Source: Parvularia atlantis
Taxonomy: Eukaryota; Opisthokonta; Rotosphaerida
DNA length: 24,338 nt
Reading direction: 5' to 3'
NCBI GenBank assembly: GCA_943704415.1
Contig: CALSCO010001631.1
Span: 1-24,338, forward strand
Position numbers and translations under genes: made by a program. Shown here one piece after another: positions 35 through 20,109 of this stretch. Each line of letters starts with the position of its first letter. The stretch's first letter is position 1. Under the pieces are notes generated by a model. It made no database searches and was not told the origin of the DNA. It saw only the letters and a list, made by a program, of their open reading frames with translations.

Positions 35-1279
35 GCCAAGGTCAACTCGATGATCCTCCCCGGGATGTCGTTCATGAAGCCGTCCGAGACGTTCGGGCAG
101 TGGCTCGACATCACAACCAACCAGCTCTTCGGCCTCAACTTCACGTCGGTCGCCGACACCGACAACTTTGCGATCACGTTCAAGGCCGCGGTCGAGGGCA
201 AGCGGTGCGTCCCCCCCTCGCGCGACGTGCGCACGTGCCCCGGCTCACGCCCTGCTGCACAGGCCAGGGCCGATGGTGGACATGATGAAGACAGTCATCC
301 CCGGCGTCAACAAGCCCGCGCCGACCGTCGCCATGGCCGCCGCGTCCGTCGCGCCTGCGGCGAGCGGTGCGTGCGCCGCTGCTGCGCCGCTTCGCTGCAA
401 TCAGGCTGATCGGCATCATCGCCACGCACGTGCGCCTGCAGCCGCCGCCGCCAAGCCCGCCGCGACCAACAACTTTGCCAGCAACAACGTCTACGCCAAC
501 AAGAGCGTGTCGAGCGGGCCGAGCGCGAGCATGACGCCGAGCGTGTCGGCCAACGAGGCACGTCGCACACGGGGGCGCGCCGCGGCTGAACAGCGCACTG
601 AATGTGCAATCGCCGCACCGCACTGCAGGTCGCGCTCACCAAGCAGGTCGCCGACCTCACGGCCAAGCTGCAAAAGAACGAGCAGGAGCTCATGGCGGCC
701 AAGCAGGAGATCGAGTCGCTGGTGCGGGCCCGTGCTCCCGCCCTGTGCCGTGTGCGGCCGCTCACCGCTGACCCCGTGGCGCAGTCGATCACGTCCGCGT
801 CGTTTGACGCGCTGCAGAAGCAGACCGGGGTAATGCAGGCCGAGGTGCGTGCGCGCCTGCGCGATTTCACAGAGCGCCATCTCAGCGAGTCGAGCGCCGC
901 GCACAGAACGACCAGCTCAAGGCGCAGATCCGCCAGCTCAACGAGCAGTTGGCCAAGGCCAACCTGAACGCGGGCCTGGAGCAGCAGCTCAAGGCGGCCA
1001 AGGACGATGTGGCGCGCCTGAAGGTGATGCGTGAGGCCGCTGCACACCCCGCACGTGTGCTGACGGCGACCGCGCTGCGCAGGCCGCGCTGCTGCAAAAC
1101 TCGACCAACGCCAACCTGTGGAAGGAGCAGCTGTCCAAGGTGCGCGTGTTGACCGCGGCTTGAGGGCCGTAGCGCTCACCGTGCGTGCGCAGGTCGAGGA
1201 AGAAAACAAGGTGCTGGCGGAGAAGGTGCGCGCGCTTGAGGACATCCAGCGCAAGTTTGCGTCAGTGCTGGGCAAGTGA
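35..1279 (+). CDS. Homer-like scaffold protein (EVH1 + C-terminal coiled coil), 5' partial
   Basis: Homer proteins join an N-terminal EVH1 domain, which binds proline-rich ligands, to a C-terminal coiled coil that multimerises; in animals they link receptors to calcium stores and actin. The first visible exon follows a cag acceptor at 32-34 and encodes the second half of an EVH1 domain: a VNSMILPGMSF block, then FGQW and LFGLNF, matching the Homer order INSTITPNMTF, FGQW, VYGLGF. An Ala/Pro/Ser linker follows, then heptad-rich coil. The end (ALLQNSTNANLWKEQL, then EEENKVLAEKVRALE) matches the Homer block ALLESTANVKQWKQQL. Proposed exons: <35-204, 263-366, 442-557, 629-721, 785-844, 907-1023, 1083-1139, 1193-1279 (TGA at 1277); all phases agree. 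The intron at 558-628 needs a GC donor. The first EVH1 half lies outside the window. Oddity: the position equal to Homer1 Gly89 is Asn, as in Ena/VASP. An Ena/VASP-class protein is the alternative, but the coiled coil favours Homer. Confidence 0.85.
558..628 (+). other. GC-AG intron (gcacgt donor) in the Homer-like gene
   Basis: Frame continuity requires joining GAG (555-557) directly to GTC (629), giving SANE then VALTKQVADL. The only donor in phase 0 is gcacgt, and the acceptor is actgcag. The nearest GT, four bases downstream, would shift the frame. Length 71 nt. Confidence 0.7.
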
Positions 1280-4243: not shown

Positions 4244-7200
4244 TCATACGGCCTCGAGCGCTTCCAAGTTGAGCTGGAGGCGGCTGAAGCACATGTTGGC
4301 CGCCATGCGCGCCTCGGGCGTGAGCGCCGTGGTCATGTGCTTGAGCTGCGCGCGCGCGTGCGCGCGTTAGCGGAGCGAGTGCATGCAGCTGCGCGGGCGC
4401 ACCCTGCCTGGGTGTGCGTGCGCGAAGCGCTGGACCGTTAAGATCAGGTACGCGTTCGGGTCCCCAACCATCTGCACGGGGTCCTTCTCGAGCTTTTGCG
4501 AGGCGGCCAGCTGCACGTGCAAGCGTGAACGGCGACGGCGGCGACACGAACGGCGAGCCCGCGGCACGCACGCGCGAGTAGACCGACTGGTACCCCTCGA
4601 CGTCGATGTAGTCGCCCTCGTCCTCGTACGACGCCTGGTCGTCCTCGTCCGGCTTCTCGAGCAGCAGGAGCGCCTGCTGCAGCGTGAACGAGCTGCGGCG
4701 CAGCGCGTGCGTGAGCATTGGCACGGCGCAGGCACGACCAAACTCACGCGAGATTCGGCGCCTCGATCACGGCCGGGCATTCGGTCAGGAAGCGCGTAAG
4801 GCCAAACACGCAGATCTTGCGCTCGACCGTGCCCGACGCGCGCAGGACCTCGGGCAGCACCACGGCCTGGTACAAGTTGATAAACAGCCTGCACGCCCAG
4901 ACGCCCTGTTGAGCCAAGCACAGCGCCATGCTCGACGGTGCGCACGCACCCGGGCTGGATCTGATTCAGCAGGTCTGTCAGCCGCGTCGCGCCCTGCTCG
5001 ACGAAGAACGCGAAGAAGAAGAACGAGACGACGAAGCTCTTGGTGAACTTGGTCGTGCGGCTGCTCATGAGGCGCTGCAGGATGATCGAGAACAGCGGCT
5101 GCAGGTAGCGCTGCATGTCGGCGCTGCCAGCCAGGCGTGAGACACGCCGATGCCTGAGCCCGCTGGTGCACGCACTAGGGCACGCGCTGGAAGATCGCGT
5201 TCAGCAGGAAGAAGCCCTCATGATCGTTGTTGCGCGACGCAACCAGGCGCTGGAACACGCCGAGGATAGGCTCAAGCAGGTTCTGCGCCGCCGTGAGCGA
5301 TCGTGTGCGAGGGCGAGCAAGTCAGCGCGGCGCACGTTGGCCACGATGATAGCTGGGTCCTTGAGGATGTACGCGCGCAGCAGCCGCACGAGCGGGGTGA
5401 TGTTGCCTGCGCGAGGGCGCGTGCCGCGCGTCAGCACACCGCGTCGTGTTGTGTCGCGTGGAAAGACCGCGCCGCACCTTGCTGCTCCCACAGGTATGGC
5501 GACACGAGCGCGCCGAGCAGCGCGACGTTGGACGACGGGATGGGGTCGTCATCAGGGCGCATCTCGAGCAGCTGCGCGAGGATCTGGAACACGTACGGCG
5601 ACAGCTCTACGCACGCGCGCGCGCGCGTGTGTTAGCACACCGAGCGACACGAGTTGAGCAGGCACGCACCGCCGACGTCTTGCTGCAGGATGCTCTGGAA
5701 CGGCGGGAAGAGCATGGCCTCGAACGCCGACACCGACTCGGACGTCTTCTCGGCGACGATCTGCAGGATCGAGCCGATCGTCTCGAACAGGTTATGGTTG
5801 AAGCGCGGGTTGGACGGCAGCTGACGCGCGCGATCAGTCGACCGCCTGGAGGCCGCGAGGTGCGCACCCTGGCCACGACGAGCACGACACGCGTGAGCTC
5901 GCGCACAAACACGGGCAGCAGCGACCGCAGCTCCGGGCCGAAGAAGATAGCCACGCGCATGAGCGCTGCGCGGGATGGGCCGTTTGTGTGAGCGTGATGC
6001 TGCTGGCTCGCACGGCCGGGCGCACCCTTCATCACGTGGTCGTTTTCGGCTACGCGCGCCGGGTCGTCGTCGCCCTCGCGGAAGACGACGCCAAAGAGGC
6101 CCTCGAGCAGCGCCCGCATGTACTGCGCGAGCTCGCCGGGCAGGAACACGGGCTTGTTGTCGGGCCCCTTGAGGGCCATGAGCCGCTCGAGGCACACGGC
6201 CGCGTAGGTCGCGACGACCGGGTTCTCGGCCTTCAGATGCGCCACCAGCAGCGGCAGGGCCGCGGAGAGCGCGTCCTTGGGCAGCTGATGGGCGCCACCC
6301 AGCGTAAGCGATCGCGACATCGCTGCCACCGCCCTTATCCTGCGCACCTGGTTTCGGAACGTGTAGATGAACTTGATGCAGTCGGCCTTAAGCACGGGCA
6401 GCGCGTCGTTGATGCTCGCGCGCAGGTTCGGCAGCACTGGATGTATGGTCAACACGCCGGCCACGGCGCCAGCCACGACGGCCGCGCACCCTGGTATGCG
6501 AAAAAGTCACCAAGATTGACTAGCTGGTTGGTCGCGGTGACGCCGAGCTGCGCCGAGTAATGAGACGTGCAAGCGCACGTGAGGCGCAGGCTGCGCACGC
6601 ACCGTCGCCGTGCGCCCGCGGACCGCCAGCGCGACCACGAGCACGATCGCCGTGTCCTTTGACCGCCAGTTGGCCGTCGGGTTCGCCTCGAACCGCTGTG
6701 CCACACCCCCCAGCGCGCACGCTGTCAGCTGGGACGCCAGAGCAGCAGCGCGAGGCGCACCTGCAGCAGCAGCCCAATGTACTGCGAGAAGATCTGCGTG
6801 ACCTCGGCGGGGAAGAGCTCGGTGAGGGCGCGCACAAAGTCGCACGCGGCTCTCCTGCGTGTCTCAAAGTCCGAGCCCTCGAGGTCGCGCCGGATGTAGT
6901 CCATCGCGTTGGCCTCAAACATCTCCGCGTCCGAGTCGAGGAACTCCATGTTGGGAATGACGACCTGGTGCAGGCGGCGCATCGCGAGCGAGGGATGAGC
7001 TCCTGTAGCACCGCCACCACACGAGCACGTCGTGCCTTCTCGCAGATCGACTTGAGCGTCTCGGCGGCCGAGAACATTTGCGAGTGGCTCTTGTTCTTGG
7101 CGACGGTCGACAGGAAGCGGATCGACTCGCTCACGAGCTGGGCGGCGCGCACGTCAGCGGCATAGCCAGCGAGATGCGAGTATCGCCGCAGGCACGCACC

Positions 7201-8618
7201 ATGTCGTACTTGGTCTGCGGCCCGGTCGTCACGAGCAGCGTCCACACGGCCAGGACAAAGTCGCCGAGCATCGTGAACTCTAGCGCGTACTGCTGCGTGT
7301 ACCTATGCGGGCGCACAGGCTATGGGTGAGTGATGCAAGCCGGCGAGTGCACGGAGCCGCGCACAGCTCGCAGATCTGCACGATGGCGGTGCGCAGCTTC
7401 TCAAGGGTGCCGGCCGTGTCGCTGTTGGTCTGTGCCACCAGGCGGGGTCAACTGCGCCGTCGGCGCTCGCGCTCTCAGCGCACCTGGTTGGCCAGCGCCT
7501 GCGACGAGAACGCAAGGTACTTCTTCATCACGGCCGTGAACTCGGCCAGGTGGTCCTCGAAGAACTCGGGCAGGTCGGTCGAGCTGAGCGAGTGGAAGAT
7601 CTGCGGCAGCAGCGGCGGCAGCGTGCGGTCAGCGCCAAACATGCGCGGCCGTCGCGCATAGAGCCGACCTTGAGAGCCAGGAACAGGTTGTCGCACAGCA
7701 TGAAAATGACCCGCGTGTTCTCGCTCTGCGCCGTGATCATCTCGTCGAGCGACTGCGACGCGTGTCGGCGGCGGTCAGCGACAAGCGCACTGCCAGGCGT
7801 CGCGTGCCTTAATAAGCTGCAGCAGCGGCGCCTGGATCTGCGGCAGCACAAACTGCAGCTCACGCATGAGGCTGTCGGTGCGGTACGAAAAGCGGTACCT
7901 GGAAAGCGGCGGCGGCGCATGCGCGTGAGCTTAGCACACACAGGCACACTGCACCGCACCGCTTGAAGATGGCGTGGATGGTCTGCAGCACGCCGTTGAC
8001 GGTGTCGGGCTGGCTCAGATCGACCTTGGACAGGAGCGTCTGCGCGTGCCCAGGGCGTGTGAGGGGCACGGTCCGCGTCTTTCGCGTGTGCGCGGCGCGC
8101 ACCTGCAGCAGTGTCTCCCACTGCCGCGGGAAGTCGGTCTTGGCGATGTCGGCGATGGCCACGGAGAGCTGCACGCGGACCATCTGCGGGCTGGCGAGCA
8201 TGACGTCGACGATGACGGCCCTGATCGTGGCCCGGTTGGCGTCGCCGATGAGGTCGGGCTGGCCCTCGCGCGTGTCCCAGTGCTGTGCGCACTTTCGCGT
8301 GAGCGGCCGCCCGTTTGTTACGGGCGGGCGCGCGCGCGCCTTCTTGACCAGGTTCTTGAAGATGATCGCGGCCAGCGTGCGCGCCTGCCACGCCGCGTGC
8401 GTCTGCGCGGCGTTGAGCAGGACCGTTGCGAGCCCAGGCTGGGTCTCCTGCAGCTCCTGCAGCGCCTTCTCGGCTGCGCCCGTCGCCTTGTTAAGCGCTG
8501 CGCGTGCCTCCCCTCGCACACCCGCGCGCGCACCGTGCTCGCGCTGCGCCTGCACCGGCGACTGCGCGCCCTCGAGCAGCCCCGCAACGTGCGCCAGCAG
8601 CGCGCCGTCGCCGTCCAT
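4244..8618 (-). CDS. CSE1: CSE1/CAS, exportin-2 (importin-alpha re-exporter)
   Basis: Exportin-2 is a HEAT-repeat karyopherin that returns importin-alpha to the cytoplasm with RanGTP. The reverse strand gives an almost complete series of family blocks: VQLSVAIADIAKTDFPRQW (near 8150), NGVLQTIHAIFKR (near 7990), SSTDLPEFFEDHL (near 7560), WTLLVTTGPQTKYDMV (near 7220), PNMEFLDSDAEMFEAN and YIRRDLEGSDFETRRRAACD (6960-6840), LPVLKADCIKFIYTFRNQV (near 6380), ATYAAVCLERLMALKGPDN (near 6190), NPRFNHNLFETI (near 5800), NDHEGFFLLNAIF (near 5210), SSRTTKFTKSFVV (near 5050), ERKICVFGLTRFLTECPAV (near 4790) and DEGDYIDVEGYQSVYSRV (near 4600). The C-terminus NLEALEAV ends in TGA at 4244-4246. I count about 25 exons with short introns, mostly GTGCG donors on the reverse strand. 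The start MDGDGALL at 8616-8618 fits the family length of about 970 residues. Exact splice sites were not all resolved. Confidence 0.97.
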
Positions 8619-8723
8619 CCCGTCGCGCACCGAAAGTGTCCGGCGCGCCCGCAGCTCATGTTTCTTCTCGCGCCTACCCGGGTGAATACCGTTGAAGGTT
8701 CAAACGCAGAGCGTGACCGAGCG
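8619..8723. promoter_or_regulatory. 105-bp bidirectional promoter between CSE1 and the REEP gene
   Basis: The two start codons face away from each other with only 105 bp between them, so both promoters and 5' UTRs lie here or overlap the coding regions. A short spaced palindrome, TTGAAGGTTCAA (8692-8703), sits 20 bp before the REEP start. No TATA box was seen. Confidence 0.6.
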
Positions 8724-10345
8724 ATGGTGTCGCTCTTCGCGGGCAGCGCGAGCTTGCTCGGGTGCGTCCTGCGCCGTCTGCCGAGCAGTGCCGAGCAGTG
8801 CCGAGCAGTGCCGAGCAGTGCGTGCTCACGCGGTCGACGCGCCAGCTTCCTCTTCTGCTACCTCCTGCCCGCGTACAACTCGTTCAAGGCCCTGCGCTCC
8901 GGCAGCCGCAAGGCCGTGATCAAGCTGCTCATGCACTGGACCGTCGTCTCGCTCTTTGCCGGCGTCGAGGTCTTTGCCGACGTGCTCATCGGCTGGTGCG
9001 GATCACGTCGTGTCAGCGCGCGCGTCCGTCCGCTGACCTTGCTGCGAAGGCTCCCGTTCTACAACTTCTCCAAGTTCATGTTCATCCTCTGGCTGACGCT
9101 GCCGCAGACGCAGGCCCGTCATCATGGCTCGGCAACGCTGCACTGACGTCGGCTGACGCGCGCGCGTGAGAGCAGGGCGCCGTCGTCGTCTACCGCTATG
9201 TCATCCACACGCGCTTCCTGCAGCACGAGGCAAAGATCGACCGGCTGCTGTCGCACGTGCGCCTCGCTCACATCGCACCGACGTCGCGCTGACATCGCGC
9301 ATACATCGCGCGCCAGGCCGAGTCGGCCGCATGGGACTACGCGCACTACCTGCGCGCGCGCGCGATCCAGTACGGCAAGCGCCTGCTCGTTGCGTCGCTC
9401 GACCAGGTGCGTGCCGCGGCAATCAGCGCGCAGCACGAGCTCAGCCGGCGCACGCGCATCAGGGCCAGCACCTTCTGCGCTCGCAAATGCAGGACCCGGC
9501 CGCACTCGCCACGTCGGTCACGCAGCTCGTGGCGCAGCTGCACATTGCGGCCCACAGCGCCGTCGGGACGGCGACGGGCGCGGTCGTGGCTCCCGCGATC
9601 AGCCCGGTCGAGCCGTCGTCCACGGCAGCAGAGCCGGCCGCGGGCGTCGACATGAGCCAGCACGTCGACGGCGCGGACGAGCAGCTGACGGACGAGATCG
9701 AGCAGCTGGTGGAGGACAACGACGACAGCTTCGACGCGGCCTACGTCGACGTGGACGAGGAGGAGCTGCGTGTGCCGGGCTCGTCGCCACACCTGCTGCT
9801 TCGGCGGCACCCGGCCACGCCGGCCGCGGCCAGTCGTTCGCCGCGCACGCTGCAGCTGCGCACCAGTGCGCGCCGCAAGTCGAACGCCAAGCTACGCTCG
9901 CCGCCGCAGACCGCACCGCCCGCGCGCCCGGCCAAGACGAACGCGGCCGACTGCGACGCGCCCTTCACCGACGACGACATCGCCGAGGAGCTGGCGCAGT
10001 CGCGAAAGTCGTGGACGGCGCTGCTCTCGCCCATTGCACCGGCTTCGCCCGCGTCGACTGCTCCTGTTGCGCCGGCCGACGAGAACTCGCTCGCACCCGC
10101 GACGGCACTGCCGACCAAGGCGGCCAAGCCGGGACGGGCGCACGTCGCTGCACCACCCGGCGTGCCGATCAAGCGCGTTTTTGCCGCTTCGTCGCGGTGC
10201 GCTGGCCACAACCACCCACTGTCGACTGACCGCGCGCACCCGCAGAGCCAACTCGCCGCCAGTGCTCAAGCCAGCAGTCACCAAGACAGCCAACATCACG
10301 ACCGGGCCGCGCTGGCCCACGGTGACGACCCGTCCGCGCGTGTAG
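8724..10345 (+). CDS. REEP / TB2-DP1-HVA22 family ER membrane-shaping protein
   Basis: These proteins insert hydrophobic hairpins into the ER membrane, curve tubules and, in the REEP1-4 branch, bind microtubules. The core matches in order: FLFCYLLPAYNSFKALRS, LLMHWTVVSLFAGVEVFADV, FYNFSKFMFILWLTLPQTQ, then GAVVVYRYVIHTRFL, like LLPQTQGARFLYRRVIHP in animal REEPs. Exons: 8724-8761, 8846-8995, 9050-9113, 9176-9256, 9317-9406, 9463-10196, 10246-10345; phases agree and give 418 residues. The intron at 9114-9175 has a gcccgt donor. After the domain comes a tail of about 270 residues with an acidic patch (DEIEQLVEDNDDSFDAAYVD), basic stretches and Ala/Pro/Ser-rich sequence, presumably disordered. 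The tail makes it longer than most REEPs (about 200-260 residues). The last intron is inferred from a gtgcgc donor that restores a Pro/Thr-rich C-terminus ending TTRPRV. Confidence 0.93.
8781..8820 (+). repeat. Perfect 10-bp tandem repeat, four copies, in REEP intron 1
   Basis: The unit ccgagcagtg is repeated four times without change inside intron 8762-8845. Each unit contains gcag, so the array adds several extra AG dinucleotides upstream of the acceptor at 8843-8845. Confidence 0.9.
9114..9175 (+). other. GC-AG intron (gcccgt donor) in the REEP gene
   Basis: The family block LPQTQ-GA is rebuilt by joining CAG (9111-9113) to GGC (9176). The donor is gcccgt, with ctgac-type branch motifs upstream of the agagcag acceptor. 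No GT donor in this stretch gives the conserved sequence. Length 62 nt. Confidence 0.75.
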
Positions 10346-10448: not shown

Positions 10449-13400
10449 CTATCGGTGCAGGGTGAGGTCGGCGAGGCAGCGGCGCACGACTGTCTTCTCG
10501 ACGGCGAAGAGTGGCTGCTGCTCGAGCGCCTGCTGTGCAGCCGTGAGCGCGAGCGCGGCCTGCGCCTCGGCAGCGTGGCACGCGCCGACGAGCGCGTGCA
10601 GGGCTCGGGCGACACTGCGCAGCCACCTGACGCGCGCAAAGATGCATGAGCACCAGACGCGCGCAAGGGCGAGACGCACAGTCCCATCGGCGTACACGCC
10701 CCATCGGCGCTGCGTGCCAGAGCAGCCTCGGTGCGCAGCGGCTGGGCGCCGCGGAGGCCGCGGTAGACAATATGGCGCGTTTGGGCGAGCTGCCGGAGCG
10801 TCGTGGATGGCTGTTCGTCACCCTCAGCCAGCGCCAGCACGGCCCGCATTGCAGCGCCCTCGCCCTTGAGCGACTCGGCGAAGCGCTCGTGCACGGCCGA
10901 GCGCGCCTCTGCAGCGCGAGCGTCAACAACACCAAGCCGCGGCGTGCAACGCACCGCTCGTGGCGCATGACGTGGCGAAGCGCAGCAGCACAAGCATGCG
11001 CGCCTCGACCAGCAGCGACAGCGCCAGAGAGCTCGCGGCGACATCCAGCCTGGGCGCCAAGTCGGCGCGACGCACAGCAAAGGCAGCGACACGCGCACCT
11101 AGCCTCAGTCGCGTCGCCGGGAGTTGCGCGCGCCTCGCCCAGCATGGCCAGCACGCCGTCGCAGCAGCGCAGGCACAGCTCGTGCTGGCCCAGGCGCAGG
11201 AGCACGAACGCGAGCGCCGCGTGGCTCAGAGACGTGTGCGTCTGCCGCAGCCACCCCGCGTCCGCCGGCAGCCGCGCCTGCTCGGCCTGCAGCAGCGCCA
11301 GCACGCCGAGCAGCATGTCGCACCACCTGTTGGCGCACGTCAGCGAGCAGTTCCGCGCATTCAGGCGCGTTTGCGCACCACAGCAGCTCGGCGTCGCGCA
11401 AGGCTGCGCAGTCGGCTCGCACGTCGGCGATCGTGTCGCGCAACTCGGCGGCGCTGAACGAGCGCTCGCACAGCTGCACCGCCGTCAGCCACCGCCGCCA
11501 GCCCAGCTCAGCCGCACCGTATCGGCGATCGCAGCGAGCCAGTCGCAAAGGAACGCACGCGCGTGCACGCCCAGGAGCGCCTCGGCCGAGCGCCGTGTTG
11601 TTTGCGTCTTCTTGGTCATCGGCAGGCGCTGCAACGACGCATCAGCAGGCGCTCGCAAAGCGTGAACGGTCGGCGCACCATCAGGTAGTTGACAAAATCG
11701 GCGCGCGCAAGCAGCCGCACGGCCCATGCCGCGTCCGGGCTGCCCAGGTGCGAGTGTGCGGCACGTTGCGCGTGCGACAACAGGCTCCGCGCGATGGCAC
11801 CGGCGACCTCGCCACCAAACTGCAGCACCCACAGCGCGCCCACGCACAGGCCGAGCACCCGCGGGCCCGGCGCTGCCCAGAGCAGGAACGACTTGCGAAC
11901 AGCGCGCGCGGCAGCCACGGCGGACAACGCCGACGGCTCTGTGACGCGGTTTGAGCCATGAAGCACGCGTACCACGCAGGCGTCGCACCATCACCGATCG
12001 TTGCGGCCACGGCGTCGGCGCTGGCGACGTGCCCGGCGGCCTTCGGTCCGGCGATGTGGCTGCTGGCGCCGCGCACCCACCAGCCCAGCTGGAAGACGAC
12101 AAACTGCACCGCCAGCCGCAGCACCTCGAGCGCGAGCGCGCAGACGATGCGCGAGCGTGACGGCGCGGCCGAGGCCGCCGCAGCCACACGCTGTTTGAGC
12201 GAGTTGCCTTGTACGCACGGGTGAGTCGCAGCCGGCGCGCAGGGTCAGCATCGCACCGCTTGTGAGCGCGTCCAGGTTCGCGTTGTGGTCCACAAAGAGC
12301 GCGCAGAGGCCCATGACCGCGAAAATGGCGTAGTACAGCGAGCTGGCGATCGACGCGTCAGCCCGCTCACACACCTCTGCGCAACCGGCAACGCACGCCG
12401 AGAACGAGTAGTCGACGAAGAGCGGCGCCTCGGGCACGGCCGCGAGCAGCGTGCGCATCGGTCCGGGCACGGCCGGGTGCGACGCCATACCGACGAGGCT
12501 AGATGGGCCGCACCAGAGGCCAAGCAGGACGACACCGACCATGGCGACGCGCAGGCGCTCGTCCAGGTGCGGTGCGACAGGCTGGGCAAAGTGCGCGAGG
12601 GCCTGCGGCGGGCTGAGCTCGCCGTCGCTGGATGACGCGTTGGCGCGCAGGCGGGCGTTCTCGGCGAGTAGTTGTGCTACGTGGTCGGTCAGCAGGATGC
12701 ACCGCCAAGGGGGGCACGCGCACAGTTGAACGACTGCAGGCGCATGATGTACTCTTGTGTGCGGCGGAGGATTTGCGCCTTATTGGCCTTGTCGACCTGG
12801 AGCGTGCTCGGCAGCATCGAGCGCAGGCTGCGCGCGGGGCACGTGAGCACGGTTCGACGCCGCATGTAGGAGACGCACTCGTTGATGCACTCGTTGAGGT
12901 TGTTGCGGTAGCGCTGCTCGATGATGTTGTGCGCGGTCTTGCGGTGCTTATGGCGTGGCGTCATGCCGCCGCTGCTGCTGTCGTCGTCGTCCTCGTTGCT
13001 GCGCGCGCAATCACTCGATCAGCCACACGATGTGCGCGTCACATGGGTGCGAGCGCGCGCGCCTCGGACGGCGGCTGCGGCGCGTCGCGTGCGGCATGAA
13101 CATGACCGACGTGAGGCTGTCCATCGGCATGGCAACGGGGCGCTGTGCCGCGCCGCGCTTAACCGCAGCAGTTGCGAGCAGCACGCAGCGCACCTCGAAG
13201 GCCGCTGGCGGCATCGAGAGCGACAAGTGACGCTGCTGCTGCTGCTGCTGCTGGTGGTGGTAGTGCTTCGGCTCGTAATGGTGGTGCGGCCCGAGGGCGT
13301 CGTCGGGCGAGCTGCTGCTGCTCGCGGCATCGCCGTGCGGCGGCTGCGGCGACAGCGACGGCGCCTCGAGCGACTCGGAGCGCGGCGGCGACAGCAGCGC

Positions 13401-13691: not shown

Positions 13692-16600
13692 TTAGCCTAC
13701 GACTGCGGCCTTCAGTGCTTTGGCCCACACGCTCTTGCGCTCGGCCTCCTTGGCCACGGCCGCCAACGACTGTCGCACGCTCTTGAGCGCGTCCTGCACC
13801 ACGCCGATGCGGCGCGGCTGTGCGCGCAGGTCAACAGGAGGCCCACAACGCAAATCATGCGAGCCGCACCGTGTCGCTCGTGCTCACGGCCAGCGCCGCA
13901 AACGCCTGCGCCAGCTCGTCCGGCCGCCGCTCAAACTCCTCGGCCAGGTCGCGCTGCGCTGCCTGTGCGAGCGTGCGCACGTCCTGCACAGGCATTCAGT
14001 CGCGCGAGCACATCGGCCGCGCCTGCGATCGCACCGACGCCGCGTCGCGCAGCACGTCGCAGACCTCGCCGAGGCACTTGGCCGTGTCGACCAGCGCCGT
14101 GCCCGCGGCGCTCTTGTCCTTCTTGCCCTTGCGCAAGGGGAGCACGGCGTTGAGCGCGATGGCGAGCGGCAGCAGCACGCCGACGCTCTGTGCATCGGTA
14201 TCAGCACAGCCGAGCGCAGTGCAGACGCGCAGACGCGCCTCAAGCGCAGCCACGAGGTCCGTGATGAAACCCGGCGCCAGAAACCGCTCCTCCTTGGACC
14301 GCGCCTTGGTGTAGCGCTGCAACTGCGCCTGCTTGTTGTGCGCCACGTGCTCGCGCAGGATGTCGCGCGCGCGTCCGAGCACCTCGAGCGCAGCAGTCTC
14401 GCCCGGCGCGGCCAACGTTGCAGCGACAGCCTTGCCCAGCAGTGCGGCCGCTGTGGCCGTGGCCGCCGCACCGCTCGTGCGCTCGAGTGCGTCGCACGCG
14501 CCCGTCAGTGCCTCGGCGTCCTTGCTGGCCGCGAAGGCGACGACGCGCAGCAGGTCTGCTACCAGCGTCAAACGTGCAAACGCCCGTCTGTCGCCACGTG
14601 CACGCACCGATCTGCCGCCGCGCCCAGTCAACCGAGCGCTGGCCCGGCAGCCGCGCGAGCAGCTCGGCGTCGACCGTCGCGCGGTCCGAGCGGTTCCACG
14701 ACACGACGACGCCGTAGTCGCGGTTGTCCCGCCGACATGCCCAAAACGCGGCGTCGTCGAAGTCTGCATGTGCGCCGTGAGACACGTAGCCTCGACAGCA
14801 CGCGCGCTCTCGCACCCTTTGCCAGCAGCGGCTCGAGCTGCGGCGGCGCGCGCGCAAACTCCTTTACAAGGTCCTCCAGGCCCTGCGCGGCCGGCGCGAC
14901 GGCGCTCAGGCGCTGCGCACCGCCCGTGAGCACGACATCATGCGTGTGCCCAGGCCGCACGTGGAACTCGAGCGCGGCATAGACGCGATGCAGTGAGGCC
15001 TCAAGGCGCGCGCGAAAGTCGATGAACTCGCGGATCTGCGGCCCCGTGAGCGCATCAGGACCAAAGCGCGACTCGCGCCACGCACCTTCGAGTACGTCTG
15101 CTGGTCGTACGCTAGCACGGTCATCTCGGCTACCTCACGGTTGCTCGTGCGGTAAAAGTCGAGCACGTGTTCGCACAGCTCGGCCGTGCGCTCGAACGCG
15201 CCCAAGCTGACGAGGTGGTCGGTTACAAAGTAGCTGAGCGGCGGCGCCGGGTCAGCGGCGCAGGCGCCTGTGCGAGCGTCTGTGCGACGACGCACCTCAG
15301 CGTGTCGTGCTGGATGTGCTTGATTGAGAGGTAGCGGTAGTGCGGCAGGGCGCACGCGACCGCGCCTGCGCAGGAGCAGTGAGCCACGCGGTTGCCACGA
15401 GCGGCGCGCGCGCACCGATGAGCGTGTACAGGCGGACGGCGAGCAGGCGCAGCTGGAAGTTTGCACGCGAGCGCTCGACGGCACCCTCGAGGAAGACGAG
15501 CGAGCTGGTGACGAGCCCGAGGTCGCCTGCGTTGCGCGCGTGAGCTTTGCCGTAGAGCGCATCTCGTCGGCGCACCGCTGGTGTAGTAGGCGTCGAGCAG
15601 CTCGTGCACCGCGAGCAGCACAAAGTCGTCCCCGTGCTGCCGCTCAGACGAGGCCAGCTCGACGCCAAGTTTGAGCGCGGTGTGGTATCGGTCGAGCAGC
15701 GCGCGCGCCACGTCCGCGCGGGCGGCGGCAGGCGTGTCGGCCGGGCGGCTGTGCGCACGCAGCTGTTCAGCCAGCCAATGACGCACGAGCAAGACGAGCT
15801 GGCAGCAGACGCACAACAGACGCCGCAGCTGCTCAACAAACACGAGCTTGCGCGTGTTGGCAATCTAGTTGCGCAGGTCCACGCATGAGCGGACGCAAGT
15901 GCGCGGCCAGCGCCACCGCGCACACCGTGTTCTCCTCGCTGATGCCGTGCACAACGGCGTCGATCAGCCGGCTTGCTGCCGCGCCGTCCAGGCACTCAAG
16001 ATACGGCCGCAGGTCCGCGAAGCACATGAACTGAAGGTCGCGCGGCGTCAGTGGCTCTCGATGCCCCAGCATGTCGCTGCGTACCTTGGTACTGAACGTG
16101 TGCGCGTACACCTCGATCAGCGGGTACAACGCGACCTGCTGGGCCTGCCGCAGCCCGTCAGTCATGCGTGCGAGCGGGTTTTGCCACGCACCGCGCGATC
16201 GCCGGCGTGCAGCCGTCGGTGGAATTCGAGCAGCACGAGGCGCGGCCCGCGAGAGTCCCGCTGCGCCTTGTTGGGCGCCACCCCGCCGTCGCGGCTGCTG
16301 TCTGGTACGAGGCCGCCCAGGAACGCCTCTGTGGCGCTGCACGGCCGCGTGAGCTCGCGATAATTGTGCTCTCTCTCGCGCAACACGCACGCGGTCTCGT
16401 CGGCAGCGGGGGCGCTGTGCAGGGCAAACCACGCGTCCAGGTAGCCTGACAGCACGATCCAGTCGTCCGCGCTGCGTCAGCGTGAGCGCGGGAGCACACG
16501 CCAAACGGGGCGGCGGACGCACGAATGCGTCGTCAGAAGCTCGCGCGCAACGGCGAGTGAGTCACCCCAGCGCTGCTGCTTGAGCAGGTGCTGCAGCAAA

Positions 16601-17955: not shown

Positions 17956-20109
17956 ATGCGCTCCGCTGCGGCCGTGCTGGGCGCGGTTCTGCTGGGCGCG
18001 GCGCTCGTGACCGCGCAGACTACGATCCTCGACGACTACGTGCGTTGCCCGCGGCCGCACGCGCAGCCTGCCCGTTGACGCCGTCCGCACATGAAGGTGA
18101 ACGCGTACGACCCGACCTACCGCTGGGAGCTGGCCAACACCGTCGCCAAGGACGGCTACACGTTCTACGCGCTCAAGCTCGTGTCGCAGACGTGGCTCAC
18201 GCCCGACCAGATCGACCGCACCGTCTGGGTGCGCGCCCCCCTGTATGGCGCTGAGTGCGTGCGTCTCACACACGGACCGGCAACGCGCGTGCAGGAGCAC
18301 TGGATCCGCGTCTGCGTGCCCAACAACGTCCGCTCGGACCTCGCGACGATGTACATCAACGGCGGCGGCAACCCGCTTGGCGGCGCGCCCAGCTCGATGG
18401 ACGACTACCGTTGCGTCGCTCTGTCGCGCCGTCCAACTCGGCCTGGTCCTTACCGCGCCGCTCGCGCCGCCCTCCGCGCAGTCGTCAACGTGTGCCTCAA
18501 CACGCAGCTGATCGTAATCGAGCTCGGCCAGATCCCCAACCAGCCGATCAAGTTCGCCGACGAGGACTTTGGCCGCTCGGAGGACGCGTTCCTCGCCAAG
18601 ACCTGGTGCGCGAACGGGGCGAATGCGCACGGGGCTGACACCCGCGCCACGCCAGGGACAACTTCATCAAGGCGCGCAGGCGCAGCGCACGCGATGAGGG
18701 GGGGTGCTGACTGGCACACCCGCGCGCGCACACACAAACGCAGACTCGCGACGGGCTCCAGATCGGCCGCCTGCCGATGGTTAAGGCGTCGGTGCGCGCG
18801 ATGGACGCGCTGACCGAGTTTGTGCGCCAGTATCTGCCGAGCGTGCCGGTGCGTGCACCCGGGATGATGGGTCTCCCGCGCGCGCTGACGTCGGTGCGCC
18901 AGGCCCCAACCCGCTGGGCGGTCGCGGGCGGCTCGAAGCGCGGCTGGACGACGTGGCTGACGGGCGCCGGTGCGGCCCGGGCGCGTGGGCGCCACGGTGC
19001 CTTTGTGCGTGCTGAATTGGCGCGCCAGTCGACCGGCGCGTCGTGGGCATCGCCCCGATCGTGATCGAGGTCCTGCAGATGACCCCGAACCTCAACTTTG
19101 AGTGGCAGGTCTATGGCCGCTGGCCCGTCGCGTTCGGCGACTACACCGACATGAACATCACGCGCTGCCTCAACTGCCCCGTGTTCCAGGAGCTCGGCGC
19201 GATCGAGGACCCCTACGTGCGTCCGTGCGGAGGAGCACTGCATGGGGCTGACGTGCCTGCGTGCGCGCATGTTTGCAGTCGTACCTGTACCGCTTCATCG
19301 AGCGCAAGGTGCCCATCTTCTCGATCTCGGCCACGGGCGACGGTGCGCTGTGGTGTGTGGGCTGCAGCGCGCTAACACGCGGCCGCGCGGACAGAGTTCT
19401 TCCTGCCCGACGGCTACCAGTGGTGGTACAACACGTACCAGGGCGAGAAATACTTGGGCATCCAACCGAACGCCGAGCACTCGATGTTCAACCGGATTGA
19501 GGAGCTCACGGCGGCCCTGGGCTCGTACGTCGTCACGCTCGACCGCAACCTGCCCCGCCCCAAGTTCACCTGGACGTGCGTGGTGTACTGCCGCTGGTCA
19601 CGCTGGCGGCTCACGCGGCCGCGTGCGCGCGCGACGCAGCATGTCGGCCGACGGCTCGACCATCCGTGTCCAGAGCACGGACCGCCCCGTGCTCGTGCGC
19701 GCGTTTGAGGTGCGTCGCGCCCCGTTCGTGCCTCGTGCAGCATGTCGCTCACACGCTGCGATCGCGCACGTGCACGCACGCCCAGGCCTACAACAAGCGC
19801 AGCCGCTCGTTCATCGCCAACTGCTACCTGACGTGCCTGTGGCGCGAGACGGTGCTGCAGGACCTGGGCAACAACACGTACGCGGCCACGTTCGACATCC
19901 CGACCGAGGGCTACCGCGGCTTCTTCATCGAGCTGCACTACCAGGTGGCCGCGGACCAGCCGCCGATGGTCGTGACAACGGGCAGCTCGATCATCCCCAA
20001 GCAGCTGCCGTACCCGCCGTGCGAGGACAGCGTGTGCGGCCTGTGCGACTCGTGCGAGCCGGTGGCGCCTGTCGCGCGGCGTCCGCAGCTGGGCGGCGGC
20101 CGTGTCTGA
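17956..20109 (+). CDS. Secreted AprA / PhoPQ-activated pathogenicity-related family protein
   Basis: This alpha/beta-hydrolase-like family (Pfam PhoPQ_related) includes Dictyostelium AprA, a secreted repressor of proliferation, and bacterial PqaA. Residues 1-20 are a signal peptide (MRSAAAVLGAVLLGAALVTA). The body matches the family: YRWELANTV, SQTWLTPDQID, HWIRVCVPN, INGGGNPLGG, LGQIPNQPIKFADED, RLPMVKASVRAMD, GGSKRGWTTWLTGA, VYGRWPVAFGDYTDM, ATGDEFFLPDGYQWW, GEKYLGIQPNAEHS. By my numbering Ser203 (GGSKRG), Asp298 or Asp304, and His327 (AEHS) could form a triad. A Cys-rich tail (CEDSVCGLCDSC) follows. Exons: 17956-18039, 18097-18228, 18295-18409, 18482-18605, 18656-18671, 18744-18848, 18903-18969, 19029-19216, 19279-19342, 19395-19575, 19640-19709, 19786-20109; 489 residues, stop TGA. 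A 16-nt micro-exon at 18656-18671 lies between two introns. Secretion and an anti-proliferative role are inferred from the family only. Confidence 0.91.
18672..18743 (+). other. GC-AG intron (gcgcgc donor) in the AprA-like gene
   Basis: Phase-0 joining of AAG (18669-18671) to ACT (18744) gives FIK then TRDGLQIGRLPMVK, matching the family. The GT candidate at the gtgctgac is out of phase. Length 72 nt. Together with the preceding intron it leaves a 16-nt exon. Confidence 0.65.

Follow-up and report, generated by a model that had tools for sequence, protein, structure and literature searches.

Homer is a scaffold protein of animal synapses. According to Singer et al. (2024, PMC11237882), it occurs in animals, in choanoflagellates and in Capsaspora, and in several amoebas Ena/VASP is present but Homer is not. 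The authors infer an ancestor whose pocket was blocked; in the published model this was an Ena/VASP-like protein, from which Homer branched off. The pocket of Homer is formed by Gly89 and is blocked by Asn90 in ENAH and by Asn89 in Dictyostelium VASP, and a four-residue swap in ENAH including N90G gave Homer1-like binding (PMC11237882). On the partner side, the Homer site PPKKFR of the inositol trisphosphate (IP3) receptor is near-identical across Metazoa, the sponge reading PPMKFR, according to Sakarya et al. (PMC1876816). In this study we analyzed a gene at positions 35 to 1279 of a 24,338 nucleotide (nt) stretch of Parvularia atlantis DNA (CALSCO010001631.1), hereafter the window, which is an entire contig (C395) of the 16.25 Mb, 616-contig genome. 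Judged from its sequence, the gene encodes a member of the Homer family in which the residue at the Gly89 position is Asn.

A whole-genome search with the Pfam WH1 profile (cut-off 22.4 bits) gave a match of 30.7 bits at C395:32-187. The corresponding exon, 35-204, is flanked by the acceptor cag at 32-34 and the donor gtgcgt at 205, and its translation is AKVNSMILPGMSFMKPSETFGQWLDITTNQLFGLNFTSVADTDNFAITFKAAVEGK. A first-pass annotation made from the letters of the window had called this protein Homer-type on account of its FGQW and MSF blocks, with a VASP-like Asn at the Gly89 position; both readings were borne out, as the exon carries the two blocks together with the two-residue insertion of Homer, and reads LFGLNF with an AAC codon for the Asn. 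The parts of the gene are as follows.

35..204, + strand: second half of the EVH1 domain (MSF, FGQW, two-residue insertion, LFGLNF), Homer exon
137..139, + strand: AAC codon, Asn at the Homer1 Gly89 position
263..366, + strand: linker, Homer exon
442..557, + strand: linker, Homer exon, with a GC-AG intron (558-628) directly after it
629..721, + strand: start of the coiled coil, Homer exon
785..844, + strand: coiled coil, Homer exon
907..1023, + strand: coiled coil, Homer exon in which the Homer1-similar block begins
1083..1139, + strand: Homer exon ALLQNSTNANLWKEQL, resembling Homer1 ALLESTANVKQWKQQL
1193..1279, + strand: final piece of the coiled coil, closed by the stop codon TGA (1277-1279), Homer exon
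C544 12630-12789 (start codon at 12580), outside the window: first half of the EVH1 domain, Homer exon

The seven introns of the gene within the window are 53-75 nt long and all preserve the frame; apart from the GC-AG intron, the other six are GT-AG. Since the introns keep the frame and the third-position guanine-cytosine (GC) fraction of the coding part within the window is 0.937, the gene looks intact. The Asn at the Gly89 position is genuine. Any GGN glycine codon is at least two bases away from AAC, so that a single base error would not produce Asn89, and we consider a sequencing error at this codon unlikely.

The window begins in the middle of the EVH1 domain, and the upstream exon, along with the residues at Trp24 and Phe14 which the first-pass annotation had proposed to inspect, was recovered from another contig, C544. 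When the genome was searched with WH1 at a relaxed threshold (E 10), seven matches came up, two of which belong to a WASP-like gene (C330) and three to an Ena/VASP-type gene (C43); the two orphans were the window exon 35-204 and a match close to the terminus of C544 (12640-12780 of 12811). Translated, the exon on C544 gives EEPVFSVSAQIYILDGDTQNWAPATSSVVDVTFYYDPATTRTRIIGMEDDE. It ends at a GT, and 22 nt of the contig lie beyond the exon; Trp24 is kept in it and Phe14 is replaced by Tyr. The joined model has 322 residues and runs from an EVH1 domain at the N-terminus through a linker to a coiled coil at the C-terminus; its five-base first exon and the acceptor that follows are splice sites chosen by us. 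Since the join crosses two contig ends without a bridging read or transcript, the C544 exon might come from another gene than the exons in the window, in which case residues 14, 16 and 24 would be foreign to the protein. We regard this as very improbable. The two pieces are the sole orphan halves among the seven matches, they join in phase 0 with a gap-free alignment to Homer1 across the junction, the leftover intron of 22 + 34 nt compares with 53-75 nt for the introns of the window, and the C544 exon alone scored 31.4 on the Homer hidden Markov model (HMM) versus 11.4 on the Ena/VASP HMM.

The family of the joined EVH1 domain was examined by scores, by alignment columns and by trees. Against PDB sequences it gave 77.2 bits with Homer1 and 40.7 bits with ENAH, while the host's own Ena/VASP EVH1 gave 98.6 bits with ENAH and 35.1 bits with Homer3; likewise, it scored 80.4 bits on a Homer1-3 profile HMM and 44.6 bits on one of mammalian ENAH, VASP and EVL. 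The joined domain has both the two-residue insertion and the G of FGQW, neither of which occurs in four Ena/VASPs, SPRED1 or the host WASP. Within alignment columns 7-112, 14 columns separate Homer1-3 from the four Ena/VASPs. Of these, 6 carry the Homer letter in the Parvularia protein, 2 (37 and 89) the Ena/VASP letter and 6 neither, one of the latter being the first residue of the insertion, where the position is present with a different letter. When only three mammalian Ena/VASPs were compared, the 34 separating columns held 11 Homer letters, 6 Ena/VASP letters and 17 that were neither. In trees of nine or ten sequences, whose Homers other than the Parvularia protein were not from unicellular species, the protein grouped with Homer1-3 at 100/99 when SPRED1 was the outgroup, the three vertebrate proteins forming a group to its exclusion (94/95), and a placement with Ena/VASP, which the first-pass annotation had named as the outcome that would overturn its reading, was rejected (p 0.00029). 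With SPRED1 and WASP together as outgroups this placement was again rejected (p 0.0029; Homer support 72/99), but with WASP, a very long branch, as sole outgroup it was not (p 0.47; Homer support 74/99). The last test, along with Asn89 and the few other Ena/VASP letters, is what can be said for a derivative of Ena/VASP instead of a Homer, and it tells against our assignment. Such an origin is nevertheless extremely improbable given the scores, the insertion, the SPRED1 trees and the fact that the genome encodes a separate Ena/VASP (C43), besides the WASP-like gene (C330), which has an EVH1 and a P21-Rho-binding domain. One Homer was found in the genome. A Pfam scan of the 322 residues, run without a positive control, returned WH1 and ten matches below cut-off, with no VASP tetramerisation domain (EVH2) among them. 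A tblastn search for relatives in IMG/VR and GTDB contigs, viral and prokaryote records in which little was expected, found none.

The binding groove was next compared site by site, with the roles of the sites taken from PMC11237882 and their positions from our alignments. In Homer1 numbering the specificity sites are Y14, L16, W24, S66, M68, F74, L78 and N89. Compared with Homer1 there are six changes (F14 to Tyr, I16 to Leu, T66 to Ser, T68 to Met, A78 to Leu and G89 to Asn), while W24 and F74 are kept, and LFGLNF replaces the VYGLGF or VFGLGF of vertebrate Homers. The protein thus shares with vertebrate Homer1/2/3 the EVH1 blocks, W24, F74, FGQW, the two-residue insertion, an aromatic residue at 14, an aliphatic one at 16, the lack of the Ena/VASP pocket residues (ENAH Lys69, Asn71 and Arg81) and a coiled-coil block in which a Trp is conserved; it differs from them in Asn89, Tyr14, Leu16, Leu78 and a shorter tail past that block. 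With the Ena/VASPs (ENAH, VASP, EVL and the host's own) it has in common the Asn of the YGLNF-type motif, whereas these proteins have FHQW and Y16 and lack the insertion, and the Parvularia Homer has FGQW, L16 and the insertion. Two further proteins can be compared by their description in PMC11237882. The Capsaspora Homer (coHomer) is likewise a Homer of a unicellular opisthokont which also has Ena/VASP, but its modelled pocket resembles that of Homer1 and it has Glu78, in contrast to Asn89 and Leu78 here. The Dictyostelium VASP EVH1 (ddEVH1) has Asn at the pocket site as well and no well-formed Ena/VASP pocket, but it has F14 and Y16 within an Ena/VASP protein, whereas the Parvularia protein has Y14 and L16 within a Homer architecture. 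By these comparisons the groove is of the Homer type, with no Ena/VASP pocket. That Gly89 lies in the ligand groove, as the first-pass annotation had stated, agrees with the pocket role given in PMC11237882, and the Phe pocket of Homer is probably blocked by Asn89. The G89N change that the annotation named as a standard loss-of-binding mutant did not turn up for Homer among the papers searched. Because this key pocket residue is of an apparently older type, the protein probably grips different partners from those of animal Homers. The interpretation in the first-pass annotation was supported in part: a Homer-type domain does carry the Ena/VASP form of the pocket residue, but its other groove sites are not Ena/VASP-like, and it may be an EVH1 of intermediate type.

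The C-terminal part was compared with the Homer1 coiled coil. In the block 907-1279, 21 of 59 residues are identical to the first part of this coil, a similarity reached in 0/500 residue shuffles and in 3/500 shuffles of seven-residue blocks. Scanned in 28-residue windows, the C-terminal 137 residues gave a heptad signal (22/2000 shuffles as high), with a peak between 3.4 and 3.6 (0/2000 shuffles as high). By these measures the protein has a C-terminal coiled coil with a Homer sequence block.

Taken together, these features make it fairly likely, in our view, that the gene encodes a Homer scaffold with an Asn-filled pocket, which would bind proline tracts weakly and with avidity rather than the PPxxF sites of animal Homers. 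By homology, the coiled coil would multimerise the scaffold and the EVH1 domain would hold proline-rich peptides through Y14, W24 and F74. Asn89 would fill the pocket into which animal Homers take the Phe of PPxxF, so weak binding of proline tracts is to be expected, not binding of the animal PPxxF sites; the Phe anchor would not be strongly needed, and avidity would come from the coiled coil. The nearest measured analogue known to us, the Dictyostelium VASP EVH1, prefers [LF]PPPP and binds weakly (PMC11237882).

Several observations weigh against this reading. An exact period of 3.5 over the full C-terminal stretch was not significant (732/5000), a search of PDB sequences with the coil at E 10 gave 6 sequences, without a Homer among them, and the Homer1-like block closes the protein instead of opening a long coil, while Homer1 extends well beyond it. 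The first-pass annotation had matched the C-terminus to the Homer coiled coil, and of this match the similarity to the first part of the Homer1 coil stood, but the tail is short and the PDB gave no Homer. Moreover, a weak aromatic preference persists in Dictyostelium VASP alongside its Asn (PMC11237882), implying that Asn need not abolish such a preference, though the EVH1 of that protein has Tyr16 and the Parvularia Homer does not. Tyr14 and Leu16, the letters of neither Homer nor Ena/VASP, also tell against our reading. The weak preference of Dictyostelium VASP would suit a protein in which Asn89 is tolerated and PPxxF is bound normally through other adjustments near the pocket, and so would Tyr14 and Leu16, which could give the groove a different shape. 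We consider this unlikely, and a weakly binding scaffold with its pocket filled by Asn89 remains the reading that we prefer.

The IP3 receptor of the host gives a view of the same contact from the partner's side. Domains of IP3-receptor type were found on three contigs (C202, C406 and C402). The best match, on C202, reads IPVKFRDCLFKLYP where the mammalian receptor reads PPKKFRDCLFKLCP, its exons having been joined by eye, and at the animal Homer site it has IPVKFRD versus the mammalian PPKKFRD. No PPxxF was seen in the corresponding stretch of C406 and C402, which was inspected by eye and unaligned; other PPxxF partners were not searched for. From these alignments, both sides of one animal Homer contact appear to differ in the host. 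Such a two-sided change fits a lineage without the IP3-receptor contact, although a contact never had and a contact lost would look alike.

It is plausible that the protein is an evolutionary intermediate, and the gene may record how Homer acquired its animal partners. A Homer which bears Asn but otherwise the marks of its family, in a genome whose Ena/VASP is separate and whose IP3 receptor lacks PPxxF, is an intermediate of the sort that the model of PMC11237882 calls for. Tentatively, and with somewhat less than even confidence, we suggest that the host is on the fungal side (a nucleariid of the Fonticula type), that Homer is older than the animal-fungus split and that its Asn is ancestral; duplication, coiled coil and insertion would have come first, and Gly89 with the PPxxF of the IP3 receptor later, towards animals. 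A reversal would leave the pocket equally blocked with a different history: Gly89 would once have been present and then lost by drift or re-specialisation, and the likeness to Ena/VASP would be convergent. This is a substantial possibility, though we would not call it probable. The protein is divergent, with 37% identity to Homer3, an end branch of 0.89 and letters of its own at 14, 16, 66, 68 and 78, and the Capsaspora Homer was modelled with a pocket nearly identical to that of Homer1 (PMC11237882). On the other hand, going from Gly to Asn takes at least two base changes, and a host IP3 receptor which lacks the PPxxF site too suits a contact never had, though not exclusively, as noted above. 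With such a Homer, the order of the evolutionary steps can be put to the test using a single purified domain and a small set of peptides. Among the titles and abstract openings found, which leave most subscription papers uncovered, there was no Homer with Asn at Gly89 and no Homer outside Holozoa, and where Homer and Fonticula were paired in this literature, Homer occurred as a reference or an author name only.

Markers elsewhere in the genome were examined with respect to the host. The insert of EF1A (C464:17523-18179) has 13 residues, compared with 12 in human EF1A and none in archaeal EF1A; this insert is a mark of opisthokonts and is not known from plants. A 72-base stretch of 18S, searched for without a positive control, gave no hit. 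The exact codon pattern HRDLA[AST]RN was not found in the genome by a search without a positive control, which left Src-type HRDLRAAN and intron-split codons uncovered, and cadherin gave no match at E 0.001; because neither was found, a choanoflagellate or filasterean host was thought unlikely. A typical fungus was considered as well, and chitin synthase gave no match at E 0.001 to PF03142, the only family searched. Tektin also gave no match at E 0.001 and IFT57 a single match of 17.5 bits, below its cut-off of 40, two flagellar markers which do not prove the absence of a flagellum. The GC fraction of the window is 0.686. Fonticula alba, which belongs to Rotosphaerida, has a GC content of 70.3% according to PMC10752896, a figure given little weight here, as a doubtful one for Leishmania stands in the same sentence. 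Overall the host looks like an opisthokont, and a nucleariid of the Fonticula type would fit, although each of the negative searches is weak when taken singly.

Downstream of the Homer gene, the next gene in the window (1779 to about 3081, + strand) is of the ADIP type (Afadin- and alpha-actinin-binding; PF11559, 72.1 bits), with hand-joined exons, and may extend further. Three open frames at 4367-7302 (- strand) match the CSE1/CAS exportin (PF03378, PF08506). One open frame at 7935-9146 (+ strand) matches TB2/DP1/HVA22 (PF03134), and another at 14906-15643 (- strand) the NatB non-catalytic subunit (PF09797). The open frame at 18079-18813 (+ strand) has a PhoPQ_related match (PF10142, 74.6 bits), a family named from bacteria.
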